Shown: positions 37,360 through 39,231 of the stretch, piece after piece
Numbering within the stretch: position 1 is the stretch's first letter
Layout: every line of letters starts with the position of its first letter
DNA from: Candidatus Poseidoniales archaeon
GTDB taxonomy: Archaea; Thermoplasmatota; Poseidoniia; Poseidoniales; Thalassarchaeaceae
Direction: 5' to 3'
Assembly: GCA_028821675.1 (NCBI GenBank)
Contig: JAPKFG010000003.1
Location: 1-43,282 of the forward strand
Length of the DNA: 43,282 bases
The notes under the pieces: model-generated
Told to the model about the DNA's origin: nothing
The model's input: only the letters and a program-made list of their open reading frames with translations
Databases searched by the model: none
Translations under genes and position numbers: made by a program

Positions 37360-37983
37360 ATGTCCGTTCTGCGCAGTCAAAAAACGATGAGCGTTGTCAT
37401 GGCGATACTTTTCGTATCGATGGCCATGCCAGGGTGTCTCTCTCTGGTGATTGGACGGGAAATGATGGAAAGTGCCAGAGGATTTCCGGAGGTCCGTGAA
37501 ATGAGTACACCCTTCGATCTTTCACACACATTCGTCATCGATGGTACTGAAGTAATTCCCACCCAAGTTCAGAAAACGATTACTGAACAGATTTCGATTG
37601 ATCACACTGTTCAGGAAATCATTATCAATTTCCAAACATCTGTAAATTATTACGCAGGTGAGTCAGATCAGCGTTATGTCCATGTTGAACTATTGTGGTG
37701 TGATGACAGTGGCGCCAATTGTGATACGTCCGATCCGATTTACGAAGTGCTGGCCGACAATGGCTCCTATCCGCAGACACGGACAGAATTGAATTGTAAT
37801 TTGGATTCATGCGACAGCGGTCTGTGGCGCTTGACTGTAGATGGTCGAGGTATGGGCACAGATACGGGCCTTGGTTTGCTTGATTTCCAAGATTCCTGGG
37901 TGCTTCGCGTCACCGTGATACGTCCCTGTCTCGCTTTCCCAGAAAGCCCTGAGGAATGTACACCCACGGTCGACTTTGAGTGA
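37360..37983 (+). CDS. Putative lipoprotein, unknown function
   Basis: MSVVMAILFVSMAMPGCLS lipobox-like (MPGC) after a hydrophobic stretch. Confidence 0.75.
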   Translation: MSVLRSQKTMSVVMAILFVSMAMPGCLSLVIGREMMESARGFPEVREMSTPFDLSHTFVIDGTEVIPTQVQKTITEQISIDHTVQEIIINFQTSVNYYAGESDQRYVHVELLWCDDSGANCDTSDPIYEVLADNGSYPQTRTELNCNLDSCDSGLWRLTVDGRGMGTDTGLGLLDFQDSWVLRVTVIRPCLAFPESPEECTPTVDFE

Positions 37984-39231
37984 TTAGACCAAACTCTGCG
38001 GACACATTTTCCGTCGCGAACAATTGCGACACTTACCTTTTCTTTCGTGGTTACGCTGTGCTCCACCCTCAACCATAAGGCGCTGAATTTCTTGTATTGA
38101 ATTCGCTAAATCAGCCTTCGCTAAATCATTCCATGGAACCGTAAACAAAGCCTCGCCCCCATAGCGTAGAATCCCATACTCAGGCATAGTGTCAGTCGTA
38201 GTACTCACCAGATGAAGATAGGCCAGTAATTGCATCCGATGACTATCATGTGGTTCGGCAGGAATCTTACCGGTCTTTTGTTCGACCGGGATGTATTGAT
38301 TGTCAATCTTCACGATTTGATCTGGTCGCCCTCGTACCCCAATCTCTTCATCGACGAGTAACGCAGCACTTTCTCCCGCATCATCACTGTAGGCTAAGAT
38401 GTCATTCTTTGCCAATCCAGTGTTTTTTCTTGCATCATCAGCCCCTCGTTCCGATGTCAGCACCCTGTGTAATTGCCATGATGTAAACAGCAACCATGCC
38501 AATGTGGCCACTATGAGAGCAAACGTCATAATGGTTCTATTTTGCGCCCAGTAAATCGCCAAACCGTGCAACGCAACGGCAATTGACGCCAATAACAATC
38601 GAGCTTCTGTGACTCCGCCTTTCCCGAAGTCACTGTCTTCTTCTGAATCAAACCCTGGATCGAATGGTGACATTATTTCTTCACTTTGCAATCCACTATT
38701 GCCGATGATTGGGGGTTGGGCCAATCCAAAAGGCCACCCTAACCATCGTCGCCAAGGCAAGGAGATGAGTATGATTGCCAACACCAGCCAAACCGCAGCC
38801 AACATGATGAGATAACGCCCCATGTCCTGAATGAATTCCTCAGGAATCGTGCCTTCACTGACGAAGAAGAAGGCTGCGGAATCGGCCGAAAGTGCGCATA
38901 ACACTGTAATCCACCAGGACCAAATTAGCAACTCACGCGAAACGTGCTCTTCGGATAGTTTGTATTCCTGCATTTTATTGTGAATTTGGTCGTGTGCAAG
39001 CATGCCTTTCTCAATCGCTTCACCTTCTCCACTAACACCGGCTTTCGACAATTGCCACGACACTGGGCAGTAGGTGTGCCGTTCCAGATCGGATGCAGAA
39101 ACGGGTAGAGGAAATCCCTTCAAATTCGTCCAATAACCGTCCTTTCGTTGTTTTCCTTCAGATATTGTTCCTGAAAGGTCCAAGGCGACTTCAACCGATT
39201 TATTCCCGCCCATGGGGGAGAGAGAATCCAT
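37984..39231 (-). CDS. Cas4/Dna2-like PD-(D/E)XK Fe-S nuclease with multi-TM insertion
   Basis: VSASDLERHTYCPVSWQL (N-terminal Cys), KGMLAHDQIH (His), GVRGRPDQIVKIDNQYIPVEQKTGKIP (D..ExK), HRMQLLAYLHLV (QxxxY-like), CRNCSRRKMCPQSL (C-x2-C-x5-C). Hydrophobic helices between the His and Asp motifs. Confidence 0.88.
   Translation of the reverse strand: MDSLSPMGGNKSVEVALDLSGTISEGKQRKDGYWTNLKGFPLPVSASDLERHTYCPVSWQLSKAGVSGEGEAIEKGMLAHDQIHNKMQEYKLSEEHVSRELLIWSWWITVLCALSADSAAFFFVSEGTIPEEFIQDMGRYLIMLAAVWLVLAIILISLPWRRWLGWPFGLAQPPIIGNSGLQSEEIMSPFDPGFDSEEDSDFGKGGVTEARLLLASIAVALHGLAIYWAQNRTIMTFALIVATLAWLLFTSWQLHRVLTSERGADDARKNTGLAKNDILAYSDDAGESAALLVDEEIGVRGRPDQIVKIDNQYIPVEQKTGKIPAEPHDSHRMQLLAYLHLVSTTTDTMPEYGILRYGGEALFTVPWNDLAKADLANSIQEIQRLMVEGGAQRNHERKGKCRNCSRRKMCPQSLV

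Follow-up and report, generated by a model that had tools for sequence, protein, structure and literature searches.

A Cas4-type nuclease with an insertion of predicted transmembrane hairpins in Poseidoniales and other Thermoplasmatota

The nuclease gene and its Cas4-type core

This study analyzed a 43,282-nucleotide stretch of DNA (hereafter, the window) from a Candidatus Poseidoniales archaeon of Marine Group II, with Thalassarchaeaceae and Poseidoniales as its nearest kin, and focused on a nuclease gene that is present in a single copy in this genome. The initial annotation had given the correct span of the open reading frame and had left out its strand, which is the minus strand. The gene and the parts of its predicted catalytic core are listed as follows:

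37984-39231, minus strand: nuclease open reading frame; 415 aa, ATG start, one intact frame; Cas4-type, predicted to be membrane-embedded
38932-39114, minus strand: N-terminal core half (aa 40-100), carrying the first Fe-S cysteine and the His helix
39067-39069, minus strand: Cys55 (YCP), predicted first Fe-S ligand; invariant in 63/63 Poseidoniales rows and 26/26 phylum rows
38992-38994, minus strand: His80, predicted active-site His, on a helix (71-125) that continues into TM1; 63/63 and 25/26
37987-38376, minus strand: C-terminal core half (aa 286-415), carrying GRPD, PVEQKTG, QLLAY, and C-x2-C-x5-C; the Pfam, NCBIfam, and PADLOC Cas4 models match here
38320-38322, minus strand: Asp304 (GRPD), predicted metal ligand; 63/63 and 25/26
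38275-38283, minus strand: Glu317-x-Lys319, predicted catalytic E-x-K; invariant in 63/63
38002-38031, minus strand: Cys401-x2-Cys404-x5-Cys410, predicted remaining Fe-S ligands; 63/63 and 26/26

The Pfam search of the window protein returned only two matches above the cut-off, Cas_Cas4 (PF01930; 1e-9, 39.1 bits against a cut-off of 22.7) and PDDEXK_1 (6.5e-10), and both were located in the C-terminal half. The NCBIfam model TIGR00372 (cas4) was narrowly passed (65.5 bits, cut-off 65), and some Poseidoniales members scored below its cut-off (58.1 and 50.9 bits). The library models match only the C-terminal half because the nuclease is split by an insertion. When aa 101-274 were removed in silico, TIGR00372 aligned in one piece, from position 2 to position 179 of its 180 positions, at 69.2 bits; when the N-terminal half of this insert-less protein was shuffled as a control, the score fell to 58.1 bits and the alignment covered the C-terminal half only.

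All the Cas4/Dna2-type landmarks claimed by the initial annotation were present. The residues C55, H80, D304, E317, K319, Q334, Y338 (the last two in QLLAY), C401, C404, and C410 were invariant in all 63 Poseidoniales homologues, and the N-terminal half of the same alignment contained the invariant set S45, A46, S47, E50, Y54, C55, and P56. Across the 26 phylum rows, the Asp, E-x-K, and Q-x3-Y motifs were retained in 24 to 26 rows, and the exceptions comprised K for His (one row), T for Asp (one row), and D for Glu (two rows). These findings strongly support the identification of the window protein, by homology, as a Cas4/Dna2-type PD-(D/E)XK nuclease with a conserved active site. Judging by these residues, the protein would possess nuclease activity and bind an Fe-S cluster.

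We modeled the window protein with AlphaFold2, using the 63-row Poseidoniales alignment as input, and obtained a mean pLDDT of 78.8 and a pTM of 0.62. The model contained helices at 71-125, 131-157, 202-228, and 232-271, which were placed beside a Cas4-like core with strands at 292-366, and only residues 1-9 and the acidic linker region (165-203) fell below 50. In this model, the helix carrying His80 appears to run unbroken into TM1, and TM4 appears to be prolonged into the cytoplasm. A Foldseek search against the PDB placed Cas4 of the type I-C Cas4-Cas1-Cas2 complex at ranks 1 to 3 (probability 1.00, best E 7.4e-4), with Dna2, AdnAB, another Cas4/Cas1/Cas2 complex, and MGME1 at lower ranks. 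The initial annotation had staked its reading on structure prediction recovering a PD-(D/E)XK core, and AlphaFold2 and Foldseek together recovered one.

The predicted transmembrane insertion

The window protein exhibited four hydrophobic segments (aa 107-125, 140-158, 212-230, and 233-251), whose Kyte-Doolittle means ranged from 1.6 to 2.8. On the basis of hydropathy and the AlphaFold2 model, we assigned the transmembrane (TM) helices and their connections as follows:

38857-38931, minus strand: predicted TM helix 1 (aa 101-125), from hydropathy and an AlphaFold2 helix
38758-38820, minus strand: predicted TM helix 2 (aa 138-158), hydropathy 2.82; the TM1-TM2 loop is probably extracytoplasmic
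38608-38757, minus strand: TM2-TM3 loop (aa 159-208), probably cytoplasmic; invariant P159-W160-R161 and the Poseidoniales acidic linker, low model confidence
38545-38607, minus strand: predicted TM helix 3 (aa 209-229), from hydropathy; shares homology with the hairpin found in other Thermoplasmatota
38470-38532, minus strand: predicted TM helix 4 (aa 234-254), from hydropathy and the AlphaFold2 helix 232-271
38419-38469, minus strand: predicted extension of the TM4 helix toward the C-terminal core (aa 255-271), from the same AlphaFold2 helix

The active-site His and Asp are 224 residues apart in the window protein, whereas a manual count gave 27 for a CRISPR Cas4 from a haloarchaeon; the difference indicates a net insertion of approximately 195 aa. 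A transmembrane insertion between these two motifs was correctly recognized in the initial annotation, although its size of approximately 215 aa was slightly high and its composition of tandem hairpins was missed. The acidic linker described there was also found, at aa ~180-203, within the only long low-confidence stretch of the model. We looked for homologues without the hydrophobic insertion, and every aligned member, from Poseidoniales and from the other Thermoplasmatota, carried it at the identical point. This shared position, together with a dN/dS of ~0.1 within the insert, places the insertion far beyond chance. The recurrence of this architecture, which was found in 86 or more genomes of the order and also throughout the phylum, the invariant active site, and the selection on the insert refute an assembly chimera or a dead gene, either of which would be extraordinarily improbable.

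The spacings between the motifs were nearly fixed elsewhere in the core (Cys1-His 21-26; Asp-Glu 13 in all 26 phylum rows; Glu-Cys3 81-86), and the His-Asp spacing changed stepwise, being 115-121, 172-189, or 215-224. Hydropathy identified four TM segments in 104 distinct proteins, two in 13, eight in two, and three in 23; the three-segment calls probably represent proteins whose fourth helix was missed, and in the rows inspected TM4 lay just below the threshold. The insert therefore varies in size by one TM hairpin per step, with two, four, or eight helices. A profile comparison of hairpin 1 with hairpin 2 in non-marine four-TM members yielded E=2e-15 (98.5%), whereas the reversed control reached only E=0.01 (4%), and the eight-TM protein L186 contained four matches to the hairpin profile. 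When the Poseidoniales hairpins were compared with this module, the second was clearly homologous (95.5%, 1.5e-8) and the first weakly similar (82%, 1.1e-5); the mutual resemblance of the window family's own two hairpins is gone (4%). These results strongly support the hairpins as tandem duplicates, two in the window protein and one or four in relatives. The homology of the hairpins and the stepwise insert sizes suggest that the module grew by copying a hairpin of ~60 aa, and because the number of helices was kept even, both core halves would lie on one side of the membrane.

To which side the core belongs was indicated by genus g20 (L042 and L043), in which an extra soluble domain of ~105 aa lies exactly between TM1 and TM2. 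The only other relatives of this domain in the same genomes (E 2e-17 and weaker) were repeats within a 2,524-aa protein, which has a hydrophobic signal-like start and, near its end, a hydrophobic segment followed by charges, an apparent C-terminal anchor; by its look, it is a putative surface protein. The loop domain is of the DGWNG type and lies at L042 9080-9397, and the 2,524-aa protein is encoded at L252 3454-11028. The homology of the loop domain to surface-protein repeats suggests that loop 1 is outside the cell and that both nuclease halves are cytoplasmic. An acidic loop 1 (net charge -1.7) is a feature of the family, and the invariant PWR comes after TM2. For the predicted inner loop (159-208), the net charge is -0.5, owing to the acidic linker; with an inner loop that is neutral to slightly negative, the positive-inside rule alone is not decisive, and the statistics are mixed. 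The number of TM helices, the g20 ectodomain, and the AlphaFold2 model together point to a membrane location with the nuclease on the cytoplasmic side.

Distribution, inheritance, and genomic context

Within the class, 196 of 294 genomes carried the gene, and they represent 18 of 25 genera. It was present in every genus of f2 (the second Poseidoniales family, Poseidoniaceae by named records), in all three genera of f3 (which we take to be MGIII), and in four genera of the family to which the window belongs, so that all genera were positive in two of the three gene-bearing families. The seven genera without the gene are all small-genome members of the window's family; seven search matches in small-genome genera (e.g., L047 and L048) were rejected, as they resemble an unrelated DUF58-type protein. 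At the corresponding locus of the nuclease-less genera, only ~70-150 bases separate the lipoprotein gene from that for ribosomal S2, and the junctions are clean. The nine nuclease-less genomes grouped as one clade (SH-aLRT 99) when a tree was built from four flanking genes, and a single loss within the order therefore explains the pattern. The loss in seven genera also shows that the function is dispensable. Partial second copies were observed in two genomes: a broken copy near a contig end in a Poseidoniaceae genome (L045 8700-9906, G022:C6) and another in L046 (G013:C164).

The initial annotation had overlooked the spread of the gene across the phylum, in which matches were obtained in 256 of 393 genomes and 112 of 156 sampled genera; at most 40 of these loci were aligned, and the insert was verified in those only. 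A core tree separated the Thermoplasmatota group from three plasmid-borne Cas4 proteins of other phyla (99), with long outgroup branches. Phylum-wide conservation and vertical inheritance are thus strongly supported. The search covered Thermoplasmatota genomes, and the group may be wider than this phylum. One Thermoplasmatota member (L190 7642-9384) carries an apparent C-terminal TRAM-type (nucleic-acid binding) domain, and its N-terminal half seems to be cut or to begin upstream.

The gene is under purifying selection, with a dN/dS of 0.05-0.13 overall, although dS was saturated in the more distant pairs; the two closest pairs showed 0.10-0.13 for the whole gene and ~0.1 for the insert alone. 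Median identity to the window copy was 47% for the nuclease, 53% for the tRNA-dihydrouridine synthase (Dus), 64% for ribosomal S2, and 28% for the lipoprotein, and the nuclease thus evolves at the rate of an ordinary gene.

Comparison of gene neighborhoods revealed that an opposite-strand lipoprotein gene, a CARDB/zinc-ribbon protein gene, ribosomal S2, and Dus are conserved around the nuclease within the order and that this conservation ends at the order, outside which no conserved functional neighbor was found. No same-strand or operon partner consistently adjoined the nuclease in this comparison. The neighbors are housekeeping and surface genes and are uninformative on function. In the window, the lipoprotein-like gene (37360-37983, opposite strand) has a frame that abuts the nuclease stop codon and no Pfam match; it is fast evolving and is retained even where the nuclease was lost.

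No cas genes were seen near the nuclease in the window or in the compared neighborhoods, and Cas1 was detected in only one of 146 genomes of the class, which rules out a CRISPR-associated gene and bears out the view in the initial annotation that no CRISPR lies nearby. The sole Cas1 (L227; G158:C17:4258-4923) is in an f3 genome and may be a casposon, a CRISPR remnant, or contamination. No defence island was seen in the neighborhood comparison, and no repair gene or helicase adjoins the nuclease in the window. Scans of IMG/VR and a tblastn search of a phage collection found no viral relative, and a viral origin was rejected on this basis.

Relation to known enzymes and possible roles

The closest known counterpart is solo-Cas4 (COG1468/PF01930), defined in the survey of Hudaiberdiev et al. 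(2017, PMC5704561), whose main text suggests uncharacterized defence or repair functions. The window gene likewise carries the Cas4 motifs, lies outside CRISPR loci, is mainly vertically inherited, and is under near-ordinary selection, but it differs in that a large TM-hairpin insertion separates the His from the Asp. In the main text of that survey, "membrane" occurs once, for an unrelated gene, and "insertion" and "hydrophobic" do not occur. Our literature search returned no description of a transmembrane Cas4 of Thermoplasmata, and only a casposon paper matched. An editorial refers to work by Rentz et al. (2025) on the Solo-Cas4 of M. mazei.

CRISPR-associated Cas4 (PDB 8d3q and 7mi4), the soluble accessory protein as which Cas4 is mainly known, shares the core fold, and its model TIGR00372 is passed by the window protein, whose gene in contrast has no cas1, cas2, or effector genes beside it. 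Dna2, AdnAB, and MGME1 share the PD-(D/E)XK fold as weaker Foldseek matches; none of the three is known to be a membrane protein. Helicases are fused to Dna2 and AdnAB or work together with them, whereas the window nuclease has no adjoining helicase in the window. A "Dna2/Cas4 domain" protein of a B. subtilis plasmid (L232 1381-1866, NZ_OX419581.1) resembles the window protein in carrying a GRPD/ExK half core after a hydrophobic helix at the N terminus, but it comprises 162 aa, lacks the Cys1-His half, and has a simple N-terminal anchor. As to its molecular nature, the window protein is well supported as a variant of solo-Cas4 of unusual design, probably embedded in the membrane.

Taken overall, the explanation that we consider probable is an integral-membrane, solo Cas4-type nuclease whose core closes around tandem TM hairpins and which acts at the inner face of the membrane. 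The hairpin module follows the helix of the active-site His, which is predicted to continue straight into TM1, and the two core halves (Cys1-His and Asp-ExK-QxxxY-Cys3) would meet on the cytoplasmic side around the module. Held by the membrane, the nuclease would stay at the inner face of the envelope and apart from the bulk chromosome. Taking the enzyme to be a Cas4-type exonuclease or flap nuclease, we suggest that it may trim or degrade the ends of DNA that reaches the membrane or rests on it.

Two possible roles, defence and housekeeping, appear about equally likely. The membrane location favors defence, and the single loss and the absence of defence islands favor housekeeping. A defensive enzyme would constitutively clear incoming viral or plasmid DNA independently of CRISPR and spare the chromosome, in the manner of SNIPE, a membrane-bound nuclease that cleaves phage DNA during injection and whose membrane helix shields the host chromosome, removal of the TM segment making it host-toxic (PMC13190303). 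This is a tentative reading with a precedent in SNIPE, and the membership in the Cas4 family where CRISPR is essentially absent, the probable membrane location, and the external domain added in g20 are consistent with it. SNIPE and the window protein would share a nuclease tethered at the cytoplasmic face of the membrane. However, SNIPE is an accessory system in at most 10% of a clade's genomes, with a GIY-YIG nuclease, DUF4041, and usually one N-terminal TM helix (PMC13190303), whereas the window nuclease is unrelated, is a core gene, and has neither GIY-YIG nor DUF4041 among its Pfam matches. Vertical inheritance with one loss within the order, a moderate rate of evolution (47% median identity to the window copy, with Dus at 53% and the lipoprotein at 28%), and the lack of a defence island and of viral relatives also argue against a role in defence.

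The housekeeping role, to which we give the same tentative credence, would be the processing or repair of DNA ends on the membrane-proximal chromosome or on replication intermediates. It accords with a core gene that is present in every searched genus of f2 and f3, was lost once, in streamlined genera, and is under purifying selection, and with a fold whose nearest relatives include Dna2, AdnAB, and MGME1. NurA (PF09376) was found in none of the 89 genomes of the order, and another end-resection nuclease could thus be needed. Nevertheless, these 89 genomes include the genera without the nuclease, which is therefore not a required replacement of NurA; moreover, no repair gene adjoins it in the window, and a membrane anchor would be odd for general repair. 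End resection in Poseidoniales may, given the NurA result, differ from that of other archaea.

A receptor-like enzyme, in which the hairpins would sense the state of the membrane or an external ligand and switch the nuclease on, for example in an abortive response, appears unlikely. The predicted single helix formed by the His helix and TM1, together with the predicted extension of TM4 into the cytoplasm, could couple sensing to catalysis, and the variable number of hairpins (one, two, or four) and the external domain of g20 agree with this idea; however, no conserved ligand site or partner is known, and the extracytoplasmic loops are very short in most members. The role in DNA uptake (natural transformation) suggested by the initial annotation draws on the topology of a membrane nuclease only and is highly improbable, since ComEC (PF03772) was found in none of the 89 genomes of the order, against 10 of 14 control genomes, which argues against competence-type uptake, and the active site is probably cytoplasmic.

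The preferred reading, a membrane-held solo Cas4-type nuclease, can be carried further to an inherited immunity at the membrane wall of Thermoplasmatota, whose marine groups are nearly devoid of CRISPR; in this scheme, the nuclease, held by a duplicating hairpin module, would cut entering DNA and be gated through the TM1-His helix. We regard this extension as doubtful. If true, it would constitute a second independent origin of nuclease defence at the injection site, besides SNIPE, and would place Cas4 in immunity without CRISPR.

For solo-Cas4, the findings provide an anatomical clue to its role, namely a membrane module that is integrated into the catalytic core and whose hairpin is present in one, two, or four copies, and this module makes the question of that role experimentally testable. 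They also indicate that the equivalog name of TIGR00372, "CRISPR-associated protein Cas4", is misleading, as several CRISPR-free membrane proteins are so labeled. In Marine Group II and many related archaea, the nuclease points to an unstudied, membrane-bound handling of DNA.
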